Shown here: positions 1,825-48,778 of the stretch, one piece after another | Layout of the letters: each line of letters begins with the position of its first letter | How positions within the stretch are numbered: position 1 is the stretch's first letter | DNA from: Candidatus Eisenbacteria bacterium | GTDB lineage: Bacteria > Eisenbacteria > RBG-16-71-46 > JAFGJU01 | Direction of reading: 5' to 3' | DNA: 64,000 nucleotides | Assembly (NCBI GenBank): GCA_026388185.1 | Contig: JAPLKG010000017.1 | Span: 1 to 64,000 of the forward strand | The notes under the pieces: model-generated | Databases searched by the model: none | Told to the model about the DNA's origin: nothing | Seen by the model: the letters and a program-made list of their open reading frames with translations, nothing else | Program-made: the position numbers and the translations under genes

Positions 1825-3772
1825 GTCGCAATGCCTCGATGGGGTTCAAAGTGGCGGCTTTGCGTGCTGGATAGAATCCGAAGAAGAGCCCTATTGCGAA
1901 GGCAAAAGAAAACGATAGCACCACGGAGGCAGGCGTGACTACCGTCGGCCAGCCTCCGAAGCGACTTGCAAGTTTGCTCGCCACCAGTCCCAGGAAAACC
2001 CCAACCAGCCCTCCGCTCAATGACACAATGATCGCCTCGACGAGAAACTGACCAAGGATGTCGCGCGGCTGGGCACCGATTGCCTTGCGAATGCCTATCT
2101 CCCTCGTCCGCTCGGTCACCGATACAAGCATGATGTTCATAATCCCGATCCCGCCGACGACGAGGCTCACGATTGCAATCCCCGCCAGCAGCATGGTGAA
2201 TGTCTTGCTCGTCTCCTTCACGGTGGAGAGAATCTCCGCCTGCGAGTCCACGTGGAAATCGTCCTCTTGCCCTTCCCTAATCTCATGATTCTCCCGCAGG
2301 AGGCGTGTTATCTCTTCCGTGGCCGTGTCCATCACGCTCTGGGATTTTGCCTCAATGTTGATGGACGACAGGTGGTCCACGCCGAACAGCCGCTTCTGTG
2401 CAGTCGCCAAGGGGACGAGGACGATGTCGTCTTCATCCCTCCACCCGCTGCCGCCCTTCTCTTTCATCACGCCGATGACTTGAAACGTGCTTCGCTTGAT
2501 CTTGATGTATTGCCCTATGGGATCCTCAGTTCCGAAGAGGTTTTCCACCACCGTTTGCCCCAGGACGGCTACCCGGCGCAAGTATCGGTTGTCGCTTTCG
2601 CTGATGAAAGAGCCCTTCGCCAATTGAAAGTTGTTGACCTCGGGAAAATTGGGCGTAACTCCGCTAATGCCGGTGTTCGTGTTCTTGTTCCCAAAGACTA
2701 CCTGGGCGTTCCCTGAGAATGTGGCGTCGACTTTGGCGACGGACGGACATTCTTCCGCGATGGCCAGAGCGTCTGCATACGTGAGGGACGTGACTCCTCC
2801 CATCGCCCCCCTGGCAGGTCCCGTCGTTTGGGCACCTGCGCGCACCATCAGAAGGTTCGCCCCCATCTGGCTTATCCTTTGCGTGATTTGCAGGCTCGCT
2901 CCTTGACCAATCGCTACCATGGCAATCACAGCCGCCACGCCTACCACGATGCCGAGCATCGTCAGGAAACTGCGAAGTTTGTTTGAGAAGATGGAAAACA
3001 CGGACACAAGCAGGCTCTCTTTTAGTTCGGAGATGGAGAACACTCTCTTTTTCTTGCCACTGCGTCTCGGCAAAGAAGCCCTGTCCACTTGAGCTCCACC
3101 GGCGTTCCTGGTGTCCTCCACAAGCCCACCGTCCCGTAGGCGGAGGATTCGCTGAGCGTGTGCCGCCACCGAATTATCGTGCGTCACCAAGATGACGGTC
3201 ACGCCCTTCCTGTGTGACTCGGTCAGGATCGCCATTATCTCGCCGCCGGAAACGGAATCGAGGTTGCCCGTCGGTTCGTCCGCGAGGAGGATCGCCGGAT
3301 CGTTGACGAGCGCCCTCGCGATGGCGACGCGTTGCTGTTGTCCTCCCGACAGTTCTCTCGGTCGATGGCGGGCTCTATCCTCCAGCCCGACGGAGCGCAA
3401 TGCATCAATACACGTCTGCCTTCGCTTACCGTGATTGCCGGCGTATATGAGCGGGAGTTCAACGTTGGAGAGGGCGCTCTGCCGTGGCAACAGATTGAAC
3501 GTCTGAAACACAAAACCTATTTTTTCGTTTCGTATTTGGGCAAGCTCGGAATCGGAGAACTCGCTCACGTTGACGCCGTCAAACAGGTATTGTCCGCTTG
3601 TGGAGACGTCGAGACATCCCAAGATATTTAGAAGAGTGGACTTGCCCGAGCCCGAGGGACCCATGATGGCAATGAACTCGCCGTCTTCGATCTTGAATGA
3701 GACGTTCTTGAGCGCGGGGACCTCTATGTCCCCCATTCTGTAAATCTTGTCGACGTTCCGCAGCTCTATCAT
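1817..3772 (-). CDS. macB: MacB-type ABC transporter, fused ATPase and permease
   Basis: At 651 residues it matches the usual MacB length (about 650). The ATPase domain comes first: Walker [10 protein letters not shown] at 38-46, signature LSGGQQQR at 141-148, Walker B ILLADEP at 161-167 and the switch histidine THD at 197-199. A membrane helix at about 266-290 follows, then a periplasmic MacB_PCD domain and three C-terminal helices from about 525 (FtsX-like permease). MacB works with a MacA adaptor and TolC to drive periplasmic substrates (macrolides, peptides, lipoproteins) out of the cell by mechanotransmission. The start ATG overlaps the macA stop (ATGA), so the two are translationally coupled. 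The actual substrate cannot be read from the sequence. Confidence 0.93.
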
Positions 3773-4773
3773 CTTCGTCCCATGAACATTGGTATCCGCG
3801 GCCGAGAACTCGTCGTCTGCGTACTTGACGGCGTGCTCCCGGTTGTTACGGTTTCACTGAGAACCACCGTGTCGCCCGCCCTCAAGCCCTCGGTTATCTC
3901 GATCGTTTTCCCATCAGTGATCCCGGTTTTGACGCTTCGACGAATCGGCCTGTCTTCGAGAACTGTAACGAAGCTGTCTCCGTTCTCCTCAGAAACCGCG
4001 CCCTTGGGAATCACGAGTATGCTGTCCTTGCTCGCCACCACGAATTCCACGTTGGCGGTCATTCCGGAGGCCCAGTCGCCGGGCACTTGCACGGGCTCCA
4101 CCATCACGTCGTATTCCACCACGCCCGAGACCAGGGTACCCTCGCGGGAGATCTTGGTCACCCTGGCGTTCACGCGCTCATCAGGAAAGGCGTCGAGCAC
4201 CACCCACGCCTTCTGTTTCACTTTTATCTTGCCTATGTCTGCCTCGTCCACCTGGACGCTCGCCACCAGCCTGTCGGCGATCGCGAAGAGGACGGTCGCT
4301 GTGGTCACGTTCTGTCCGGGCTCGCAGGAGCGCATTATCACCTCTCCGCGTATCGAGTTGGTGAGAGGCACTAGTTTGTACGCCTTGTCTGCAATCTCGG
4401 AGGCCTCCTTCGCCTGCTTGATGGCTTCCTCGTCATTCTTCTCTTGGGCGGATTCAAGCGCGGAGCGGGCCGCGTCCAGGAGCGCAATTCTGTCTTCGCT
4501 GGAAATCCACGCGAGGATGTCTCCTTCCTTCACCCTGTCGCCTTCGTTGACTTCCACTTTGTCTATCCTGCCGCTGACAGACGAGCTGACCTCGACTCTC
4601 GTGTAGGGTTCGATCGTCCCCGTGGAAAGCACCTTGACCTCTATGCTGCCCGATTCGACTCTGGCAGTCTCGTAGGCGGGTTGATCCGTGTTGGCGAGAC
4701 GTCTTTCTCGAAGGTAAAAGAGTCCGGCCAAGATGATCAGCACGGGGATTATTATGAAATACAGTTTCTTCAT
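3769..4773 (-). CDS. macA: MacA-like periplasmic adaptor (membrane fusion protein)
   Basis: The chosen ATG (MKKLYFIIIPVLIILAG) overlaps the tolC-like stop as TAATG and has a GGAGG upstream. A longer frame to 4791 adds only six residues. An N-terminal signal anchor is followed by a biotinyl-lipoyl half-motif (VSGRIDKVEVNEGDRVKEGD), a short helical hairpin rich in Ala/Glu, the second lipoyl half (GQNVTTATVLFAIAD) and beta-barrel domains ending in a Ser/Thr/Arg-rich tail. The family links the inner-membrane MacB to the outer-membrane channel. At 334 residues the hairpin is shorter than in E. coli MacA. Confidence 0.9.
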   Translation of the reverse strand: MKKLYFIIIPVLIILAGLFYLRERRLANTDQPAYETARVESGSIEVKVLSTGTIEPYTRVEVSSSVSGRIDKVEVNEGDRVKEGDILAWISSEDRIALLDAARSALESAQEKNDEEAIKQAKEASEIADKAYKLVPLTNSIRGEVIMRSCEPGQNVTTATVLFAIADRLVASVQVDEADIGKIKVKQKAWVVLDAFPDERVNARVTKISREGTLVSGVVEYDVMVEPVQVPGDWASGMTANVEFVVASKDSILVIPKGAVSEENGDSFVTVLEDRPIRRSVKTGITDGKTIEITEGLRAGDTVVLSETVTTGSTPSSTQTTSSRPRIPMFMGRR

Positions 4774-6272: not shown

Positions 6273-7205
6273 TCAGATCGCCTGTCGCTTCGTGGCGCAG
6301 AGCATCACTGAAAGATGATTCATTTGGTTGCGGTCGTCACGAAAGTCCCGATGCAGATGGGGTCTTATTCTCTCAAAAGCAGGGCCATCGAGAGTCAGTA
6401 GCGGGGTCATCACAATGTTCTCCCATCCCCATCTCTCAAAGGCCTCTCTGTACTGAAACGGTCTCACCCGGTTCGGGATGCCTCTGAATCGGAACAGGTC
6501 GTACACCTTTTGACCATATCTATAGATGTTGTTTGGATCTCTCTCACGTATCCACCTGGAATGAGTCATCATGCCTATTTCTGTGACAATTACTGCTCCG
6601 CTTCTGGCCACCAGACTCAATTGCCGTACGGTGCTCTCGACGTCGTCAAAATGCTCAAACGATGCCTGGCTGAAGATGAGGTCGATTCTCTCCTTTCCAA
6701 ATGCGGAAACCGCGTCGAAATCGTCCCGGCAGACGTAATTCAGCCTGTCACTGCTTCCTTTCCGTGTCATTTCAAGTTGTCCCCGAAGAGAATCGAGATC
6801 CGCAGCGATATCCGCGCACTTCAGGCGTTCGAAAAAGTACTCGTAGAAGCCACCGGGAACGTCCTCAACCAGATTGTTGACGTCGATGGCGCTGTAGCGG
6901 CCGACGCCTTTTGCCAGGAGATACAGACCGACACCGAGATCGGAACCGGGCCCCAGCTCCAGAACACTCTTACCGACAAAAAAATCGTTTCTGCCGGTGT
7001 AGCCCTTCAGAAAAGAAAGCCACTTCTCGACCACTCCGAGGTCATATTCGGCACATCTGCGGTACTCACTGATGGAAAACGGCTTGGGAGACGAATACCC
7101 TTTGAGCGTACTCCTGGCTTTTGAGAGAAACAGGAATCCCAGTCCTGCCACATGGTAGAACAGATTTTGAAGTCTCGTGTGTAGCTTCCGTTCTAGGCCG
7201 GCCAT
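6273..7205 (-). CDS. Class I SAM-dependent methyltransferase
   Basis: The 310-residue protein shows motif I VLELGPGSD at 81-89, an acidic end of strand 2 (SAIDV) and the motif IV-like block DLIFSQASFEHFDDVESTV. These place it in the Rossmann-fold methyltransferases of the Methyltransf_11/23 type. The sequence resembles methyltransferases found near glycan or lipid biosynthesis genes (a pattern such as MTHSRWIRERDPNNIYRY), but nothing identifies the acceptor. It stands alone on this strand between the efflux operon and the DUF5916 gene. Confidence 0.8.
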   Translation of the reverse strand: MAGLERKLHTRLQNLFYHVAGLGFLFLSKARSTLKGYSSPKPFSISEYRRCAEYDLGVVEKWLSFLKGYTGRNDFFVGKSVLELGPGSDLGVGLYLLAKGVGRYSAIDVNNLVEDVPGGFYEYFFERLKCADIAADLDSLRGQLEMTRKGSSDRLNYVCRDDFDAVSAFGKERIDLIFSQASFEHFDDVESTVRQLSLVARSGAVIVTEIGMMTHSRWIRERDPNNIYRYGQKVYDLFRFRGIPNRVRPFQYREAFERWGWENIVMTPLLTLDGPAFERIRPHLHRDFRDDRNQMNHLSVMLCATKRQAI

Positions 7206-7298
7206 TTGAAGACGTGCCTCCCGGTGGTCTCCACAATCGTTTTCGAGCGAGCAAGGTCAGGGCTACAAGGCCAGGGCCGAATTACTCGGAAGAATTAC

Positions 7299-9491
7299 TC
7301 AGAAATAGAAGAGGTATTTTATCTTGAACACGCTGGTTCTGTCACTGACGTGCAATCTCTGCGGAAGCAGACTCCCGCCGCCGTCGTATTCGTCGCTCCT
7401 GTCGCGGACCTCGTTGATCGCAAAGTAAATCCAGCTCTTGGGGCGGAAATTGTACGAGAAGAGCAGCCCGCCGACCGCCTGCTCTATCTTCTCGGTAGAT
7501 CGTACGTACACGTTGTCGAGGTACACGCGGACGTTCAAGTTGTTCACCGGCGTCAGGGAGAAGAAGGGACGAGTGTTGACCGTGACGTCCTCGATTCGGT
7601 TCTCCGGAGTCCATTCGGCAAAAACGTTCAGATCCGTGCCCACCTCGAGCATGTCCAGCGCCCGCCAATCGATTTCACTCTCCGACCAGAAGTAGGGAGC
7701 CAGGTAGTCACGCGCGAAGTTGTAGGTCTTTGAGTAGCCGCCGGACAGTGACGCGTCCCACTTGGGAGAGATGTTGTACCACGAAGAGAGATTCAGGTCG
7801 TAGGAAGTGAACTCCTTTTCCAGATCTTTCGAACGCCCCGTCGAAAGACTCAGTTCGTATCCCCAGTCGTTGCGGAACTGCATGTTGAACCCCAGGAGGG
7901 CGATTCTATCGGTGAAGGCGTCGGCCTTCTCGTATTGCAGAATCCCGCCCACGTAGACGAGAGCTTGTTGGACACAGCCCTCATCGAAGTACCAGCGAGG
8001 GCCGGCCAATCCTGTGAATTCGGCCGTGCCTTTCCACGGCACGAAGCCCACCTCACTCACGTCGAAATCTTCGCCCACGTACCTGCTTCGCGCGGCTAGC
8101 AGCCATTTGTCCTTGGGCACCCTCAATCCTGCAGACGCGGCGAAATCCCCTCGCGATTCCCTGTAAGACCGCGCGACCTGATAGGCAAGCTGCCAATCCG
8201 CTCCGCGAAAAGCTCCGTCAACATCGATGACTCCCGTCTTCTCGCTGTCGGTGTTCTTGCCGACGTACAACAAGCCGACGGAGGAATTGTCCAGGATTTG
8301 CTTCTTGACTCTCACGGAGCTGAACAGTGCCTGCGGTTCCGTGATGCTCTCTCCGTCTGACTCATAGTCCTTCTCGTCCGTCACTGCCAAGAAACCGCCG
8401 TATTCCCATTCGCCGGCGCGTCCGAATGCCTTGGTCCCCAGCAGCAGAGGCACTTCGCTACCGTCCGGAAGCTTCTTCCCGATTCTCCTGGAATAGAAAA
8501 GCTCGAGCGGCTCGTAGAAACCGGAGTTATTCTCGCGGCCGGACGGCATGAAGACTTCATTTCCTTCGGTGAAAAAGGGACGCCTTTCGTCGAAATACGA
8601 CTCGTAACGGGAGATATTGAAGGCGTAGGGGTCCGCCTCAATCTGCGCGAAGTCGGGATTGCCGGTCAACTGGAACGTCAACCGTTGCGACGGATTGTAG
8701 AAAATGTCGACGCCCGCATTCGGGCTGAGCTTGTACCTGGAGTCGTGCAGGTACTCAGCTTTCAAGATGCCCACGGGATAGATTTCCAGGTTCAGGCCTC
8801 TCACGGAGGGACGGAAATCTTCAAGAACCAGCCGGCCGAATTTCGAGATTCTCTGGCCCTCGTTCTCTTCGTACGGACACCAGTAGATGTCTTCTTTCGT
8901 TGTCGGAATCCAGCGATCGAAATCGAGACCCCACGCCTCGAGGCCTTCTCGATACTGAATCGAACGATAAGGGATCTCCATTTCGATGACGAATCCCCAG
9001 TCGTAGATTCTGGCGGCCGAGAACCAGACGCCGTCCCAGTTGTAGTCGCGGTTGCGGGCGTCGTCCAGCAGTCTGCAATCCGCTCGCACGCCGGCGGCAG
9101 AAACGGCGAACTTGTACGCCGTGCGCCTGTCTCCGAAGGTATCGATCATGAGAGAGACGACGTCACCCTCGAAGTCATCGAGCGTGCCCTTGCTGCGCTG
9201 AATGTTCTTTCTTTCATCCTGGCAGATCATGAGGCAATAAAGCGCATCATCCGTGGTGAGAACTTTCGCAGTGGTTTTTCGGGAAGGCTCCTTACCATGG
9301 AAAGGCTCGAACTCTACAAAGTCGGAGGTCGAATCGGTCTGGCTCCAGAGGGGATCGATAACTCCGTCAACGGCCGGGCCGGACTGAACCTTCCTCAGCA
9401 CCAGTGCCCTTTGTGAATCCGCCCGAACCTCCGACGGCCCCACGGTGAGTAGCACACATATTACCGCAAGGAAGATAATCTTGTTTCTCAT
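7299..9491 (-). CDS. Outer-membrane DUF5916 protein with CBM9-like N-terminal domain
   Basis: The 730-residue protein has a signal peptide (MRNKIIFLAVICVLLTVG). A carbohydrate-binding-family-9-like beta-sandwich spans about residues 35-220 (marks include AVDGVIDPLWSQT and FVIEMEIPYRSI). A long run of alternating amphipathic strands follows and ends in FKIKYLFYF, whose terminal Phe is typical of BAM-inserted barrels. This is the standard DUF5916 architecture. The function is unknown; surface glycan or polymer handling is plausible. The ribosome binding site is weak, and a hairpin sits just upstream of the start. Confidence 0.85.
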   Translation of the reverse strand: MRNKIIFLAVICVLLTVGPSEVRADSQRALVLRKVQSGPAVDGVIDPLWSQTDSTSDFVEFEPFHGKEPSRKTTAKVLTTDDALYCLMICQDERKNIQRSKGTLDDFEGDVVSLMIDTFGDRRTAYKFAVSAAGVRADCRLLDDARNRDYNWDGVWFSAARIYDWGFVIEMEIPYRSIQYREGLEAWGLDFDRWIPTTKEDIYWCPYEENEGQRISKFGRLVLEDFRPSVRGLNLEIYPVGILKAEYLHDSRYKLSPNAGVDIFYNPSQRLTFQLTGNPDFAQIEADPYAFNISRYESYFDERRPFFTEGNEVFMPSGRENNSGFYEPLELFYSRRIGKKLPDGSEVPLLLGTKAFGRAGEWEYGGFLAVTDEKDYESDGESITEPQALFSSVRVKKQILDNSSVGLLYVGKNTDSEKTGVIDVDGAFRGADWQLAYQVARSYRESRGDFAASAGLRVPKDKWLLAARSRYVGEDFDVSEVGFVPWKGTAEFTGLAGPRWYFDEGCVQQALVYVGGILQYEKADAFTDRIALLGFNMQFRNDWGYELSLSTGRSKDLEKEFTSYDLNLSSWYNISPKWDASLSGGYSKTYNFARDYLAPYFWSESEIDWRALDMLEVGTDLNVFAEWTPENRIEDVTVNTRPFFSLTPVNNLNVRVYLDNVYVRSTEKIEQAVGGLLFSYNFRPKSWIYFAINEVRDRSDEYDGGGSLLPQRLHVSDRTSVFKIKYLFYF

Positions 9492-9504
9492 CTTCGTGCT
9501 CGGC

Positions 9505-9526
9505 GAGTCCCTGAATCGAGGGACTC
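9505..9526 (-). promoter_or_regulatory. 8-bp stem hairpin in the leader of the DUF5916 gene
   Basis: The perfect inverted repeat GAGTCCCT / AGGGACTC with a 6-base loop lies 13 bases upstream of the start codon. It could hide the weak ribosome binding region or act as a protein-binding site. Nothing else explains it. The rest of 9492-9673 shows no gene. Confidence 0.35.
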
Positions 9527-9673
9527 TAAAGACATGTCATCGGCGCCCGTCACTCGGGCCCGATACGCGACATACAGTACGCAGAATCGGGGAATATGTT
9601 GCACTCAAAGACGAACGAGAGGCGCGACCGCCTTCGCGCGGGCCTGCGGCCTTGCTGTTCGACTGCGTTCCGG

Positions 9674-10609
9674 CTATCTCCAGGTGCGCTCAACCTTCCT
9701 GATGAGGAAGAACGTGCCGAGGCCGAGGCATAACATGGCCACAAAGAAGAGCGGATATGCAATCTTCCACGACCGTTCCAGGCCGATCATGGCCGAGAAT
9801 TCCGACATGCCCCCAACGCCGGCAAAAAAGCTCGGAATAGCAACGGCGATGACAATGGCATTGAGGTTCTTCATCATGACGTTCAGGTTGTTGCTGATTA
9901 TCGAAGCGCGAGCATCCATGAGGCTGGAGATGACCTGGGAGTAAATCTGGGCCATTTCGTAGGACTGGGCGTTTTCTATGGCTATGTCGTCGAGGAATTC
10001 CGCGTGAGTCGTCGAGAGCCCAAGCTTGCTCGCGCTTGTTTTGAGCCGTTCGATGACGCGGCCGTTCGAGCTGATTCCCTCCAGGTAAAATACGAGGCTC
10101 TTCTCCAACGTGAACATGTTGAGCAACTGCCGGTTATTTATGGAGGAGTTTATCTGCTCTTCGAGTTCGTCGCTGCACATACTGATGGCCTTGATGTGCC
10201 CCTGAAAATGGGCCGTGGACATGTATAGGAGTTTAAGAACCACGTCTTGAATGGAATCGACCTTGGCGAATTGTCGACCGTAAAACAGCGGAATGTCCTC
10301 CGCGAGCAAAATAATGAGTCGGTTGGAGAACATGAAAAGACCGATGGACTCGACGTTGAAGAGAAAGCTGTCCTTCCCGGTGTAGCGCTTCGGCTGCTTT
10401 ATGATCAGCGCCAAGTGGTCGGGCTCCATTTCCATTCGCGCAAGCTCGTTGGAGTCCAGGGAAGAGTGCAGCGTGTGTTCATCGATATTGAGACTCTCGA
10501 TGAGGTATTTCCGTTCAGTCTCGTCGGGGTTGACGTACACGTAGATTGGACATTCTTTGTCCGAACTCTCCACGATTTTGCCCCCGCAGAAAGTGAATTC
10601 CTTCACCAT
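9674..10609 (-). CDS. CorA-family divalent metal transporter with altered GMN motif
   Basis: At 311 residues it has the CorA layout: an N-terminal soluble alpha/beta domain, a long helix, and two C-terminal membrane helices (about 249-266 and 283-303) with a basic tail RKVERTWR. The loop after the first helix, which is YGMN in canonical Mg2+ channels, reads GGMSEF (266-271). The Asn that contacts hydrated Mg2+ is therefore replaced by Ser. Variants of this kind are known among CorA-like proteins of unproven specificity. The start ATG has GAGGAGG 9 bases upstream. It probably forms a pentameric channel in the inner membrane. Confidence 0.87.
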   Translation of the reverse strand: MVKEFTFCGGKIVESSDKECPIYVYVNPDETERKYLIESLNIDEHTLHSSLDSNELARMEMEPDHLALIIKQPKRYTGKDSFLFNVESIGLFMFSNRLIILLAEDIPLFYGRQFAKVDSIQDVVLKLLYMSTAHFQGHIKAISMCSDELEEQINSSINNRQLLNMFTLEKSLVFYLEGISSNGRVIERLKTSASKLGLSTTHAEFLDDIAIENAQSYEMAQIYSQVISSLMDARASIISNNLNVMMKNLNAIVIAVAIPSFFAGVGGMSEFSAMIGLERSWKIAYPLFFVAMLCLGLGTFFLIRKVERTWR

Positions 10610-40771: not shown

Positions 40772-42433
40772 TCAGAAAATCGGGATCTCCTTGTATTCTC
40801 CAAAAACCGACTTGAGCACGTCTGTCATCTCACCGAGCGTAGCGTAGGCACGCGAGGCCTCGAGAATGGGCGGCATGAGATTGTCGGTGCCCTGCGCGGC
40901 CCTCTTCAAGGCTTCCAGGCGGCGTCTCACAAGCTCGGAATCTCTTCTCGCCCTCAACGCCTTCACCCTGGCAACTTGAACTCGCTCCACCTCCTGGTCG
41001 ATCGTGAGAAGGGGGATTTCGATTTTCTCGTTCTCGACGACGTACTCGTTCACCCCGACGATTATCCTTTTCTTGCCTTCGATCTCTTTCTGGTATCTGT
41101 AGGCGGCGTCGGAGATCTCTTTCTGGAAAAAGCCCTTCTCGATCGCCCTGACGACTCCGCCGAGACGTTCAATCTTGTCGAAGTACTCGTAGGCCCTTTT
41201 CTCAAGTCTGTTCGTCGCGGCTTCGACGTAGTAAGAACCTGCGAGAGGATCGACGGTGTCCGGGACGCCGGTCTCGAAGGCGATGACTTGCTGCGTTCTC
41301 AAGGCCACCTGCACGGCCTTTTCTGAAGGAAGCGCGAGGGTTTCGTCCATCGAATTAGTGTGGAGTGACTGGGTGCCTCCCAGCACCGCCGCGAGCGCCT
41401 CGTAGGCCGTTCTCACGATGTTGTTCTCGGGCTGCTGAGCCGTCAGGGAACAACCGGCGGTCTGCGTGTGAAATCTCAAGAGCAACGACTCTTTCTTCTT
41501 TGCACCGTATTTCTCTTTCATCTCGCGTGCCCAGATTCGGCGCGCCGCACGGTACTTGGCGATCTCCTCGAAGAAATCTATGTGAGAATTGAAGAAAAAG
41601 GAAAGCCTCGGCGCGAAGCGATCGACGTCGAGACCTGCCTTGATACCCGCTTCCACGTAGCCAAATCCGTCAGCCAGCGTGAACGCCAACTCCTGGGCGG
41701 CGGTTGAGCCCGCTTCTCTGATGTGATACCCGCTGATGCTTATCGTGTTCCATTTAGGAACGTGATCGGAACAGAAAGCCATGATGTCCGTAATGATTCG
41801 CATCGAGGGATCCGGCGGGAATATCCAGCTCTTCTGAGCGATGTATTCTTTGAGAATGTCGTTCTGGATCGTGCCCGAAATCCTGTCGGGACTCACTCCC
41901 TGCTTCTCAGCCACGCAGATGTAGAACGCAAGGAGAATGGCGGCAGGGGCATTGATCGTCATGGAAGTGCTGACCCTGTCCAGCGGAATCCCGTCAAACA
42001 GGACCTCCATGTCTTCGAGGGAATCGATTGCAACTCCGCAGCGTCCCACTTCGCCCGCCGCCTTCGGGTGATCGGAGTCGTAGCCCATTATGGTGGGCAT
42101 GTGGAAGGCGACGCTCAAGCCCGTCTGGCCCCGGTCAAGAAGGAAGTGATATCTCCGGTTCGAATCCATGGCAGTTCCGAACCCCGAGAACTGCCGCATC
42201 GTCCAGAGCCTTCCCCTGTACATGTTGTCTCTGACTCCCCTCGTAAAAGGATACTCACCGGGGAAACCGAGATCCTTCAGGTACTCCATGTCCGGTATAT
42301 CATCCGGGGAATAGAGTATCTCCACCGGCTCACCGGATATGCTCTGGAAAAGAGCGTCCCTTTGCGGAGAAGACTTCTCGTATTTCTCTTTCCACTTCGT
42401 CTTTGCTTGTCTCATCGTCTCCATGTCATCCAT
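40772..42433 (-). CDS. Acyl-CoA mutase catalytic subunit, isobutyryl-CoA mutase-like
   Basis: The 553-residue TIM-barrel subunit is clearly related to the enzyme at 31702-33363 but has Phe82 in TMRQFSGFG and Gln200 in [12 protein letters not shown]. The methylmalonyl-specific residues at these places are Tyr and Arg. The Phe/Gln pair is the established mark of isobutyryl-CoA mutase, whose substrate lacks the carboxylate. The expected reaction is isobutyryl-CoA to n-butyryl-CoA with adenosylcobalamin. It is encoded between the MeaB chaperone gene and the B12-binding subunit. Related mutases for other branched acyl-CoAs are possible. Confidence 0.88.
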
Positions 42434-42495
42434 GGCGACACCCTACCTCACGTCTCGACCGAGACACCACCAGACCGATCCTGTAACACCTCGAT

Positions 42496-43461
42496 TCACG
42501 AGTCGCCGGCCGTTTTCAGACTTCTCAGAAGACTCTCGGCCGACCGGTACGGAGTCGACGCGCCGGCAAGCACCTTCGTCGTCTCGTCGTCTATCAACTG
42601 CGAAAGCTGATTCTGTTTCCACTCTCTTTCCAGTATGCGCGCGCGCACAACACCCGTTATCTTGGACCGCACACACTCTCTGCGTCTGATTTCAATCTTG
42701 CCAGAGGAGACGAGAATCCCCAGACGTTCTTCTATTCTGCGAAAGAGTTCGTCCACGCCTTTCCCGTCCAGTGCGACGGTAGAGACGACAGGGGGCCTCC
42801 ATCCGTTGTCAGTCTGTTTGAGCTCGAGCGCAGATTCGAGTGCCCTTCTGGCGAGCTCTGCACCTTCTCTGTCGGACTTGTTCATGACAAATATGTCGCC
42901 TATCTCCATGAGACCGGCCTTCATGGCCTGGATGCCGTCGCCCGATTCCGGCACCAGTACGACGACCGTGCTGTGCGCAGCTTCCGCCACTTCGAGCTCG
43001 CTCTGCCCGACACCGACGGTCTCCACGACTATTCTGTCGGCCCCGAAAGCGTCCAGCACCTCACAGACGTCGAGCGTCTTCCACGCCACGCCGCCGCTAC
43101 TCCCACGAGAAGCCATGCTGCGTATGAAGACGTCTTCGTCCAGAAACACTCTACTCATCCGAACTCTGTCCCCGAGAAGCGCACCACCGGAGAAGGGACT
43201 CGTCGGGTCCACGGCGACAATACTCACTTTCAGTGAGGACTCCCGCATTTGAAGGGCGAGTTGCTCTACGAGAGTGCTTTTCCCCGCACCCGGGGGTCCG
43301 GTTATGCCGATACGCAGGGCTCTGCCGGTCATCGGATAGAGGGCGTCGAGAATTGCGGCCGAGTCGGGATGGTCATTCTCGACCATGGTGATTATCCGAG
43401 AAAGCGCGACTCTGTCGCCGTCACGAAAGCTGTTGAGAAGACTCTCGGTCGATCTTGCCAC
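42496..43461 (-). CDS. meaB: MeaB-type GTPase chaperone of B12-dependent mutase
   Basis: The GTG at 43461 gives 321 residues, the usual length; the frame extends further upstream into cobO without a start signal. The P-loop GPPGAGKST is at about 55-63, followed by VDPTSPFSGGALLGDRVRM, ETVGVGQSE and NKSDREGAEL (guanine specificity). MeaB gates cofactor loading and protects the mutase from inactivation. It lies between cobO and the mutase subunit, the expected order for cofactor delivery. Confidence 0.95.
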   Translation of the reverse strand: MARSTESLLNSFRDGDRVALSRIITMVENDHPDSAAILDALYPMTGRALRIGITGPPGAGKSTLVEQLALQMRESSLKVSIVAVDPTSPFSGGALLGDRVRMSRVFLDEDVFIRSMASRGSSGGVAWKTLDVCEVLDAFGADRIVVETVGVGQSELEVAEAAHSTVVVLVPESGDGIQAMKAGLMEIGDIFVMNKSDREGAELARRALESALELKQTDNGWRPPVVSTVALDGKGVDELFRRIEERLGILVSSGKIEIRRRECVRSKITGVVRARILEREWKQNQLSQLIDDETTKVLAGASTPYRSAESLLRSLKTAGDS

Positions 43462-43519
43462 TACGATTATCCCACGAGAGACGTTTCTTCCGGCAGGAAA
43501 ACCCTCGGGCGATCGAAAC

Positions 43520-44053
43520 CTAGTATTCGATGCCCTCTCTGGCTTCCACTCCCGCCACGTAATGATGTTTAACTTCAAGCATCTCGCTCACTGTGTGAGC
43601 GGCGGCTCTGAGCTTCTCGTGAGCGTATCTTCCGGTCAGAATGAGCTCGACATGTGGAGGCCTTTGCTCCAGGAGGTTAAGCACGTGGTCGAGAGGTATC
43701 AGCCCGTAGTCCACGGCGACGTTCACCTCATCCAGGATGATCATGTCGTACTCGTCGGACCCCAATGCCTCTCGCGCCTTGTCGAAACCCTTGCGAGCAA
43801 GCTCGACGTCCTCGGCGCAGGGATTCCCCTTCTCCACGAAAGAGTCTCTGCCGAATTGGATTATTTCGAATCCGGGAACATGCTTGACCGCGTCGAGCTC
43901 CCCGTATCGCCTGCCCTTCATGAACTGTATCATGAGAACCTTGAATCCGTGTCCGGCGGCTCTCAGGCCGCACCCGAGGGCGGCGGTAGTCTTGCCCTTG
44001 CCGCTGCCGGTGAAAACCTGCACGGTGCCCTTCTTGAATCTCTTCTGCTTCAT
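43520..44053 (-). CDS. cobO: ATP:cob(I)alamin adenosyltransferase, CobO/BtuR type
   Basis: From ATG 44053 the protein has 177 residues. It has P-loop GSGKGKTT (16-23), FMKGRRYGELDAVKH, LDEVNVAVDYGLI and the ending HHYVAGVEAREGIEY, typical of the family. It makes adenosylcobalamin, the cofactor of both mutases, and is the first gene of the long minus-strand operon. The TTGACT/TAGACT promoter lies 55 bases upstream. Confidence 0.95.
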   Translation of the reverse strand: MKQKRFKKGTVQVFTGSGKGKTTAALGCGLRAAGHGFKVLMIQFMKGRRYGELDAVKHVPGFEIIQFGRDSFVEKGNPCAEDVELARKGFDKAREALGSDEYDMIILDEVNVAVDYGLIPLDHVLNLLEQRPPHVELILTGRYAHEKLRAAAHTVSEMLEVKHHYVAGVEAREGIEY

Positions 44054-44107
44054 ACGTCCCGGGCCTGCGAACCTCAAGGCAGAACACGCGATACGCCAAA
44101 ACGTTTA

Positions 44108-44542: not shown

Positions 44543-45334
44543 ATGAAACACTCATTCCTCTGGGCGTTGGTTCTTCTTGTGTTGTGGTCTGTGCCTGGCT
44601 GCAGCTCGACCGAGAGCAAGCACAGCGCCACGATCGTGATTGCTGAAGGCAACTCGCTGGTCTACAAGAAGGCCGGGCCGAATGAGCCTACAACGTTCTA
44701 CGGGACCGGGAGCAGGATAGTTGTGGAGTTGATCGGTGACACCTGCTACGTGAACGGTCAGGCTTACCTGCCCCAGCCCGCTGTCCCACCGACGGTATAT
44801 CCCCTGGAAACCCTGAAGAGTAAGTACGGCAAGGTGCCGTTTGTCCTGGAGTATGTGCGCGGTCACTCCGGTGATGAGACGGAGGTGTGGAACGAGGCTT
44901 GTCGTGAGTGGGAGGAGCAACCGCTGTTACTGGCGCGCGAGGTGGTGCGGCGGTATGCATCCGACGTGCGGAGTCATAGCATGACTCCTGAGGCTGCAGC
45001 GGATACCGCGGTGGCGACGCTGCGTGCGAGCCCTTTTGTAGTGTCTGCGCACGAGGATGAGCGCTCTCGCCAAGGCAACTTGGTGTGCCGCATGATTTCG
45101 GTGCAGTGGGCAGGAGAAAGTGATTGGGAATTGCTCCTGCTTGATCCTCACCCCATTCTGGATTGGCCTCGTCCGAAGCCCATGAAGCTGGAGGAGTTCA
45201 AGTCTTTTGTTCACCTCTTGCGCAGCCTGGAGGGCAAGGGCCCCGTCACTATCGAGCTCAAGGGAGGCAACCTGAATTACATCAGCGGCCCCGGTACTCG
45301 GGAGAGAATAGAGGAGCAGAGGAGGGGTGAGTGA
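44543..45334 (+). CDS. Lipoprotein of unknown function
   Basis: The ATG at 44543 gives a classical lipoprotein signal (MKHSFLWALVLLVLWSVPGC, lipid Cys at 20) and has AAGGGGA upstream; the longer frame does not. The 263-residue product has a beta-rich N-terminal part and a helical middle (LLLAREVVRRYASDVR). I do not recognise the family. The TGA stop overlaps the next ATG (TGATG), so it is translationally coupled to the large secreted protein and probably acts with it. Confidence 0.75.
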   Translation: MKHSFLWALVLLVLWSVPGCSSTESKHSATIVIAEGNSLVYKKAGPNEPTTFYGTGSRIVVELIGDTCYVNGQAYLPQPAVPPTVYPLETLKSKYGKVPFVLEYVRGHSGDETEVWNEACREWEEQPLLLAREVVRRYASDVRSHSMTPEAAADTAVATLRASPFVVSAHEDERSRQGNLVCRMISVQWAGESDWELLLLDPHPILDWPRPKPMKLEEFKSFVHLLRSLEGKGPVTIELKGGNLNYISGPGTRERIEEQRRGE

Positions 45335-48300
45335 TGAAGGCGTCCAAGCTCTGTCTGGTGGGGCTACTGGCTATGCTTATGATCCCGGCCGTTTTTTCGT
45401 CCGTGTGGTCAGACCGCTGCCATAGCACCAACACCGGTGTTCTTGGTTGGTATCCCGTGTTTTGGGATGAGCGGGATTCCTGTGGTTGTACGTACCACGA
45501 AATGATAGATAATCTTGTGTACGGGGCTTCAAAGGTGGATGCAAGCGCCAAGTACTATGTCCAATTTGACAAGAACGATCCGCCGGAACCCATCTCTACT
45601 CTTTATAGGGAGGCGCCCTCGCATCGGACCGTGTTCGTCGCCAGTCATGGTAACCCCTGGGGATTTGTCGGCGCCTTCTACAATGACTCGACCTCCCGGA
45701 ATACTGCCTATACCCAGTTGGTTCAAGCCGGTTGGCGTGACAGCATCGAGATCTGGAAGACCAAGCCGCCTCCCGCCTACGGTATCTGGGTCTGGAATGC
45801 AGGCATCAGTAACAAGATCGCCGGGCGCATGGATTCGGAGCGCATCATCGGAGGCTTCTACTGCTACTCGATGTCTACGATGTCATCCTGGGGCGTCGCT
45901 ACGAACGGCCCGGGAACCTTCTTCGGCTTCGCAGACACCGTAGGCTGTGAGAAGTGCGATATCATGGAGACCATCATCGCTAGGATGGGTTGTCTTTCGC
46001 CCTGGTACGGTCCTCAGGCTGAAGATGCGGTTCGCTTTATGACGGACGATGTGACCCTGGTGGGCCACAAGCACAACCAGTACAATTGCCGTTGTCGCGG
46101 TTGTCGGGGTCACTGCGTCGATAGTACTGAGGTCCAGCCCTTGGGGGGGTGCAACAGGCTCACCTGGACGGCCTATTGTGAATACACTTATTGCATCTAC
46201 AGGAGCGACCATCCCTGGGGTCCCTACGTGCAGCTCACCGGGAATGCGGAAATCACCACGGAGGACTTGATCCACTTCACATGCATGGACAACACAGTTG
46301 AGTATTCGCGCCCATACTGGTACAGGTTCTGGGATGACGTGTATGTCGGCTCTGGGACACCCGAGGGTCTACCGGAGCCGACTCTTCCGAGCAGGCCGAC
46401 GGGTCTCATCGCAGTTGGGGATACCACGGACTGTGGCGATACTGTCTTCCTCTCGTGGGGGGAGAGCGCGGGAGCAGACTCATACTATGTTTTCCGGTGT
46501 GTCAGTGAGACTCTTGACGAGTGCGTTCCAGTGCCTGAGTTTCTTGGATCGACTACATCCCTAAACTACGCTGACACTACGGCGGGCCCGGAGCTTACCT
46601 ATTCTTACAGTGTGTTGGCTTGGAACGAGACTGGCTCGTCTGAGGAAAGCGCGGCAGTGTCGATACGGAAGCTTGAGAATGTATCGCCCACGGCATCTCT
46701 GGTTTGGGTGAACGACGACAATCTGCTGCTGTGTCCGGGCGGGGATGCAGACTCACTTGTTATAGGCGTGATCCTTCTGGATGTTTGTGGGGCATTCGTC
46801 GGGGGCGAACCTCCGTCCGAGGTGTACGCCGTGCTTGTTAAGAGTGAGGGGGACGTGCACGTTTGCGGCGGCGACACGCTGAGACCGTCTAGTGCGACTG
46901 ACGGAACCGGGCATACACAAATTGTGGCTCATCACATTGGTGGATGTGGGACTGTAGGCGTGCGCGTCTACGCGGAGGGCCAGGTGCTTGCTCAACAACC
47001 CACGGTTGTCTTGAGGGGTCCCGATCTTAACGCAGACGGTGCCGTTGACCTGCTTGACTGGGTGAGGTGGGTCGCTGGAGGCGAATGCACCGATCTCAAC
47101 TGGGACGGGATAGAGGGAAACACACTTGATTGGATCATTTTCAATGCGCACTGGCCTCACACAGCTAATCCTACAATTGCAGTCAACGCCCCGAACGGAT
47201 CTGAGTGGTGGAACGACGGCGATGAGAAGGAGATTACCTGGCAGTTCACTCCAACGCAGATGCGGAATGCGTACAACAAGGTGGATCTGTCCCTTTCCGT
47301 TGACGGAGGTGCAACCTACACCCAGCCCATAGACAGCCTCCTGGCAAATGACGGCTCCTGCGTGTGGACGATTCCTCAAGAGCTATCCTCCGGGGAGTGC
47401 AAGGTGAGGGCAATAGCGAGAGACGTCCATGGGTGCAGCGTATCGGACGTGAGCGATACATGCTTCGCGATTGCGGCAGTGAAAAGTGGCTTTGTGGCTA
47501 CGGACACGACTTGGGGCTCACCCGTGAGCGTGGTTGGCGACGTTGTCGTGGTAGAGGGAGCGCGTCTCGACTTAGTTCCTGGCGCCGTTGTGAGATTTGA
47601 CACTCTGGACGCTCTTCAAGGAGGAGCGGACACAGGGAAATGCGAGCTCATTGTCATGGGTGGCATAGAGGCACAGGGTAGCGAGGCGAAGCGGGGTGGA
47701 GCTTTCGTCGCTTTCGGACGCTCCTCAGGCCAGCGATTGGCGTGGGATAAGGCTTACGCCCACTAGTTCGGACAACCTGCTAGACAACTGCGTGATCAAG
47801 TACGCCTACACCGGTATCGAGGCTTGCACGACTGCTGTCAGCGTGGATTCATGCACGATTTCTGATTTCTCGAACGACGGGGTAAAGGCAAGCGGTTCAA
47901 CTGTGACGATAACGGGTAACAGCATATCGCTTGGGAGCACGGGGGTGAGAGGGATCGAGCTTGTGAACACGAGCGGGAGTGCTAGTTACAACGTGATTAG
48001 TGGGTCTTCTCAGGGTACTCGTTACGGGGTACAGTGTTCCGGCGCCGGTTCAGTGTCGCTGTCGCACAATGAGTTTGAGGGCATGTACATTGGGATCAAG
48101 GGGTACGGGACCTCTCAGTTGGACATCAGCGACAATCTCCTTACGGGCAATGTGTCGCAGGGAGTTGGTGCCGAGGGTAGTTGTGAGATGACCCTGAGGA
48201 GGAATCGCATTAGTGACTACGGGTACTTCGGGGTTGCGTTGAAGAACAGCGCTTACGTGAACCTTGGTGCGGAGCCAGACTCCGGTATGAACAGTATTCC

Positions 48301-48778
48301 GAAGAGGCCTCCTGTGAGCAGTTATTGTGTGCTGAACAAGAGGACGGTCACGGTGATGGCGGAGGCGAACTGGTGGGGTACGGACATGCCTCTTCCGAGC
48401 TACTTCTATGGTCCCGTGGATCGGATTCCGTATCTTACGGAGGATCCCCAGTTGGAGTTTGCCATGAGGGCGCCGGAGCAGGTCTTGGTGATTCCGAGGG
48501 CAGCTTACGTCGTGCAGAACTATCCCAACCCGATGAATCCTGTGACGACGATTGAGTACGGGGTGCCAGAGGACGGGGCGCGGGTAGCGGTGAAGGTGTT
48601 TGACGTTTCGGGGCACCTTGTGAGGGTGCTTGTCGATGGGGTCAAGCCTAAAGGGGTACATGTCGTGAGTTGGGATGGTGAGAGTGAGGCCGGGCGGCGT
48701 GTTGCTTCTGGGGTATACGTGTACGAGGCAGTGATAGGTGAGTATCGAGTGAGCAAGAAGATTGTGGTTCTGAAGTAG
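45334..48778 (+). CDS. Large secreted multidomain protein with putative caspase-like domain, broken by a frameshift
   Basis: A signal peptide (to about residue 23) is followed by a Cys-rich domain. Hydrophobic strands in it end in SHG (His106) and FYCYS (Cys178), the clan CD (caspase/gingipain) catalytic layout. A CRCRGCRGHC cluster is at about 253-262. Next come a fibronectin-like domain, a dockerin-like pair of calcium loops (DLNADGAVDLLD and DLNWDGIEGNTLD), an Ig-like domain, a right-handed beta-helix and a FlgD-like C-terminal domain ending SKKIVVLK. The frame shifts in a run of four G at 47693-47696. Removing one G joins EAKR to VELSSLSDAPQ and restores one protein of about 1,145 residues. 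Without that, the two halves end at 47766 and begin near 47696. Confidence 0.75.

Follow-up and report, generated by a model that had tools for sequence, protein, structure and literature searches.

The closest described systems are the cysteine peptidases of clan CD (families C11, C13, C14, C25, C50, C80 and C84). According to PMC4357240, the catalytic His and Cys of the solved clan CD structures end strands beta3 and beta4, a Gly stands beside the His in all families, and the two residues lie 42–49 positions apart in caspase-7, PmC11 and MARTX-CPD. A His-Cys dyad is shared by clans CD, CL, CP and CQ (PMC12445089). We studied a 64,000-nucleotide stretch of a Candidatus Eisenbacteria bacterium genome (GenBank assembly GCA_026388185.1, contig JAPLKG010000017.1, positions 1 to 64,000), referred to below as the window. 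Here, a gene starting with ATG at 45334 and overlapping a lipoprotein gene encodes a protein that opens with a signal-peptide-like stretch, as read from the sequence. Its N-terminal domain (N-domain, residues 25–260) resembles clan CD in having a His-Gly followed by a Cys.

We consider it somewhat probable that residues 25–260 form the catalytic domain of a secreted His-Cys hydrolase, probably exported by the type IX secretion system (T9SS), which acts in the manner of clan CD cysteine peptidases. The strongest evidence comes from alignments: the His-Gly and the Cys had been named from the window sequence before any relative was known, and were then found to be invariant. In the alignment of six proteins with the N-domain, which occur in 3 out of 47 Candidatus Eisenbacteria genomes (search with a six-row profile), the only invariant residues are Pro83, His105, Gly106, Cys177, Cys220 and Cys254. 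Thus, one of the seven His and three of the ten Cys in the window domain are kept in all six. The four securely assigned members share 17 invariant residues, His105, Gly106 and Cys177 among them, and the order of His-Gly and then Cys holds in both sets. Both members reached from other leads (loci L053 and L062) carry the HG and the Cys as well. Judged from these alignments, the motif forms the part best conserved in a small domain family that databases do not recognise. The features of the locus are as follows.

44543–45334, forward strand: partner gene, translated as a lipoprotein of 263 amino acids (its signal peptide and VPGC lipobox were recognised in the sequence by eye).
45332–45336, forward strand: TGATG, in which the stop of the partner gene overlaps the start of the next gene (from the sequence).
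45334–47766, forward strand: open frame of the main protein, 810 amino acids, running to its stop past the apparent frame break.
45406–46113, forward strand: N-domain, residues 25–260, putative His-Cys hydrolase (alignments; leave-one-out profile E 2.5e-33).
45646–45651, forward strand: His105-Gly106 (codons 45646–45648 and 45649–45651), putative catalytic His, invariant in six aligned proteins.
45862–45864, forward strand: Cys177, putative nucleophile after a hydrophobic stretch, invariant in six aligned proteins.
45991–45993, forward strand: Cys220, invariant in six aligned proteins, perhaps disulfide-bonded.
46087–46116, forward strand: C-x-C-x2-C-x3-C cluster, residues 252–261, of which only Cys254 (46093–46095) is invariant.
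46108–47685, forward strand: shared C-terminal chassis, residues 259–784, 62% identical to a paralogue with a Peptidase_M23 domain.
47686–47698, forward strand: approximate site of a change of reading frame, beyond which homology to the paralogue goes on in another frame.
47696–48778, forward strand: continuation in the second frame, with a right-handed beta-helix and an FlgD-like / T9SS type A sorting tail.

The initial annotation had proposed a clan CD domain from the motifs SHG and GGFYCYS. Both are present in the main protein, although the residue numbers given to them (106 and 178) were one too high when counted from 45334; the correct positions are His105 and Cys177. It had also placed each motif at the end of a hydrophobic run, and this was borne out: among 230 six-residue stretches of the window domain, the one before the His ranks first and the one before the Cys fifth in hydrophobicity. 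Across the family, the stretch before the Cys ranks 1–13 of 230–255 in all six proteins, while that before the His is clearly hydrophobic in three (rank 1–17) and moderately so in two (25 and 41).

The architecture of the protein also points to an enzyme. The chassis is 62% identical over 529 columns to that of a paralogue in the same genome (L009:5491-9024), whose match begins at residue 259 and sets the C-terminal limit of the N-domain. The paralogue shares the chassis and differs in its N-terminal slot, which holds a metallopeptidase domain (Peptidase_M23, 6.7e-10) instead of the N-domain. In another protein, L063, the slot is filled by Amidase_3 (1.3e-15). The N-terminal domain is therefore exchanged on related chassis, and since M23 and Amidase_3 are both hydrolase families, an enzyme would be expected in the window protein at this place too.

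The paralogue runs unbroken into a beta-helix and an FlgD/T9SS-type tail. In the window, these modules lie in another frame (47696–48778), so the frame changes near 47690; either a genuine mutation or an error in the sequence could account for the break. The end at 46150 first assigned to the feature was thus misplaced, with the open frame reaching 47766 and the homology 48778. The second-frame tail matches Pfam Beta_helix (1e-13) and FlgD_ig (6.2e-10) as well as TIGR04183, T9SS type A sorting (32.6 bits, cut-off 23), in agreement with the view that the protein is secreted. The T9SS-type tail fits the presence of the SprA translocon in the same genome (551 bits with its neighbours in frame, cut-off 200). 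A SprA-like translocon was found in 45 of 46 phylum genomes, among them that of the window, and exceeded the cut-off in 38. In our reading of the sequence, the chassis also contains FN3-like and Ig-like modules; residues 620–688 match the Kre9/KNH Ig-like family below its cut-off. The statement that no known family could be recognised overall holds for the N-domain, for which Pfam, NCBIfam and PDB sequence searches returned nothing significant, but not for the C-terminal part.

The family is small. Searched alone, the window domain matched two distant relatives, at E 7.4e-28 (34% identity in the matched part) and E 7.2e-14 (33%). Both lie on Candidatus Eisenbacteria contigs, and kinship labels put the genome of the window in the same class. 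A three-row profile added L014/L017 (E 4.6e-23). L053 was reached through a profile of the partner gene, L062 through a profile of a second domain described below. Identity to the window domain is 14–33% in the five other members. In leave-one-out profile tests with 999 shuffled decoys per member, the window domain, L007, L008 and L017 were secure (E 2.5e-33, 3.4e-36, 1.6e-21 and 2.1e-19, respectively) and L062 was supported (E 0.00083). The six-row profile, whose E-values are very low by construction because the members are its rows, found no further members in a 385-genome search that includes these six. Neither a scan of genome contigs with the single window protein nor one scan of viral contigs turned up a relative, and among the matches listed for literature on Eisenbacteria, gingipain/C25, type IX secretion and clan CD families no title concerned this domain.

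Three other matches were not counted. The one in G369 (E 0.0059) is a DNA polymerase III alpha and was gone with the six-row profile; L003, in the window's own genome, matched at E 0.67; and L006 (8.6e-5) covers only query residues 229–308, beyond most of the domain.

Several observations weigh against a clan CD-like enzyme. The His and the Cys lie 72, 82, 73, 80, 87 and 82 positions apart in the six proteins, a long distance compared with the 42–49 reported for three solved structures. In L017 the stretch preceding the His lacks hydrophobic character (rank 148 of 235); its gene (about 7480–10314) has an in-frame TAG shortly after the signal peptide, the frame being open thereafter to the end of the protein. 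In the leave-one-out test the N-domain of L053 reached only E 0.12, no better than its best decoy (0.1), although an earlier four-row profile had given 0.01. Its membership therefore rests on the second domain (E 2.7e-29), the partner gene (E 6.2e-16) and the motif itself, which stands at the expected place. For both L053 and L062 the local hidden Markov model alignments span the Cys and not the His, whose register in these two comes from MAFFT. The main gene of the window breaks frame ahead of its export tail. Finally, searches of Pfam, NCBIfam and PDB sequences linked the N-domain to no family of clan CD, and in five members no match to the C25 profile (PF01364) was reported with the E limit set at 10.

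Signals from profile comparisons were weak. With hhalign, the N-domain scored 14.0 against C25, which was equalled by 15 of 40 shuffled controls. In two separate runs, each with 40 column-shuffled controls, the scores against Peptidase_C14 (PF00656; 18.9, controls about 10) and CHAT (PF12770; 17.0, controls 11) lay above every control, but neither was significant by E-value, and neither family matched the N-domain in Pfam. The C14 alignment was out of register, whereas that with CHAT set HG on HG over 24 columns. The column-shuffled controls are lenient because shuffling breaks local hydrophobic runs: profile A9 and the partner profile, expected to be unrelated, still reached z 2.2. As controls of power, the established families scored 34.2 (CHAT–C14), 36.1 (C25–C14) and 21.7 (C25–CHAT) against one another, the last being the score of two families that are both caspase-like. 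The profiles were built from 19 of 20 fetched loci for C25 (L035 left out, its match being off the standard offset), 9 of 11 for C14 (short matches L070 and L071 left out) and 19 of 20 for CHAT (without L080, because of its offset). The phylum is rich in enzymes of clan CD type; all 46 of the 46 Eisenbacteria genomes encode C25 peptidases, and a single genome has 29 C25 matches.

AlphaFold models computed from three sequences each had a predicted local distance difference test (pLDDT) score of 33.8 for the window domain and 36.8 for the L015 domain, both unusable owing to too few related sequences. The former has no strand before the His or around the Cys. In the latter, H89 ends strand 81–89 and C171 lies in strand 165–173, which makes this model compatible with a caspase-like fold and not evidence of it. 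Searches with the L015 model brought up unrelated proteins and no significant match in both Foldseek (best E 0.083) and VIA-align (best Z 3.6), with no clan CD entry among the 50 matches listed by each. As the C25, C14 and CHAT profiles did not match and the fold models were of low confidence, we do not file the domain in any named family.

The family resembles the C25 gingipains in part. The protein is secreted with a T9SS-type tail, and five of the six proteins carry a second, C25-related domain of about 315 residues (profile A8; L062 at 1.9e-34). Unlike the gingipains, the N-domain is not C25 by profile, and the second domain is absent from the window protein; profile A8 had no match in the window's genome. 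The relation of the second domain to C25 follows a chain, from A8 to L064 (7.0e-6, and 7.5e-7 in another run) and from L064, a Peptidase_C25 member (3.6e-29), to PF01364. The direct link was not significant: the C25 profile matched none of three second domains, and hhalign scored 20.1 in one comparison and 18.5 in another, the latter against controls with a mean of 15.6 and a maximum of 22.0. The position of the C25 GHG reads GFGT, GRGT, GVTT and GLAT in the A8 rows, GFGE in L062 and GNGS in L064, with a His in none of them. A Cys is kept: the four A8 rows have it in an A/G-P-x-C context, L062 in an AGC context. With no His at the GHG place and a Cys kept, the second domain looks like a decayed gingipain domain.

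L064 itself (2629-4719) belongs to C25 but has no His where the catalytic GHG would stand, and as such represents a second type of decayed gingipain among Eisenbacteria. The C25 profile sets GHG on its GFW and the A8 profile sets GlGt on its GNGS, so that no His is found either way.

The presence of this domain in five of the six proteins tells us that the lineage does keep decayed peptidase domains. It lends some weight to the view that the N-domain, too, is catalytically dead or is not an enzyme: a caspase-like or other alpha/beta domain in which His-Gly and Cys are structural or bind a ligand, the protein being an adhesin or a sensor. We regard this as rather unlikely. The His lost from the decayed second domain is kept in the N-domain, where, besides one Pro and one Gly, nothing but His105 and three Cys has stayed invariant.

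The three conserved Cys raise the question of a metal- or disulfide-centred domain, in which the conserved His and Cys would bind zinc or pair without catalysis. Residues 1–262 of the window protein hold 12 Cys, and Cys177, Cys220 and Cys254 could make up a His-Cys3 site together with the one invariant His. We find this explanation unlikely, since a metal site needs neither an invariant Gly after the His nor a hydrophobic stretch before the Cys. Cysteines in secreted proteins are, moreover, more often oxidised. The CxCx2Cx3C cluster pointed out in the initial annotation does exist, at residues 252–261, but the family does not keep it as a whole: of its four Cys only the second is invariant. 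A His-then-Cys enzyme of another clan, with a sortase (clan CL) or L,D-transpeptidase-like fold, would show the same order of residues and suit a slot that holds M23 or Amidase_3 in relatives, but is very improbable, as sortases depend on a conserved Arg that follows their catalytic Cys, none of the 13 Arg of the window domain is invariant in the six proteins, and Pfam matched the N-domain to no sortase or L,D-transpeptidase family.

Returning to the His-Cys hydrolase, we infer a caspase-like fold in which one strand would end in His105-Gly106 and a later one in Cys177. In catalysis, His105 would activate the thiol of Cys177 for attack on the substrate, an extracellular peptide (or amide) bond, while Cys220 and Cys254 would probably stabilise the domain. 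The C-terminal modules may serve as a chassis for repeated use, by which any enzyme placed in front of them is exported and positioned. L063 (1772-6547, reverse strand) combines Amidase_3 with the C25-like second domain (5.1e-23), fn3 and Ig-like modules and an FlgD-type tail, which we read as a putative T9SS-type amidase carrying a decayed gingipain domain.

The pairing with a lipoprotein gene by TGATG coupling, reported in the initial annotation, was confirmed at 45332–45336 and recurs throughout the family. The lipoprotein has no significant match in Pfam or NCBIfam. Each of the six N-domain genes has a homologue of it as a neighbour, which lies downstream in L062 (4.5e-8) and upstream in the other five. 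Leave-one-out E-values were 7.6e-21 to 1.5e-10 for the four rows of the partner profile, and the window partner matched that of L007 at 4e-13. The matches listed for the partner profile, down to E 15, include neither the gene preceding the M23 protein nor the one preceding the Amidase_3 protein; the former encodes a PQQ-type beta-propeller protein instead. In this small sample, the partner therefore goes with the N-domain and not with the chassis. The pairing is not exclusive: partner homologues also occur in two genomes without an N-domain match, two in G015:C78 and one in G012:C63. The G012 contig stops 842 bases past the partner gene, and the gaps of G015 that were read hold no N-domain.

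Two partner homologues lie on one short contig (L051:3895-5363 and 7093-7845) of a genome without an N-domain match, where an adjacent third gene of about the same length (3895-4608) stood barely above decoys (E 0.99 versus 1.5). In addition, two genes of one genome share a secreted-type module of about 300 residues (L062 residues 20–330 and L007:4979-6625, reverse strand; 69% identical), which is joined to the partner in one of them and to the N-domain protein in the other.

Gingipains have a propeptide of about 200 residues (PMC3677877), on which the analogy for the partner is based. We infer that the partner is an inhibitor, a chaperone or an anchor, and the co-translated lipoprotein would most likely be dedicated to the enzyme in one of these roles. 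The two genes may form a new surface peptidase system, as was first suggested. A more far-reaching proposal, which we put forward only tentatively and hold to be doubtful, is that of a new clan CD-like peptidase family, so far seen only in Candidatus Eisenbacteria, with an active His-Cys domain placed before a decayed gingipain domain, a T9SS chassis with exchangeable enzymes, and a partner acting in trans as an inhibitor-chaperone that replaces the gingipain propeptide. The reading as a clan CD-like hydrolase, if true, would add to the caspase–gingipain clan a family that sequence comparison does not recognise, and would suggest that these bacteria make T9SS surface enzymes by placing different N-terminal enzymes on one shared chassis. 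It would also provide a simple two-gene system, an enzyme and its probable private regulator, which can be tested together.

Elsewhere in the window, upstream of the partner gene, positions 40772–44077 (reverse strand) encode in a row a methylmalonyl-CoA mutase, a MeaB GTPase and a cobalamin adenosyltransferase (CobO/BtuR).

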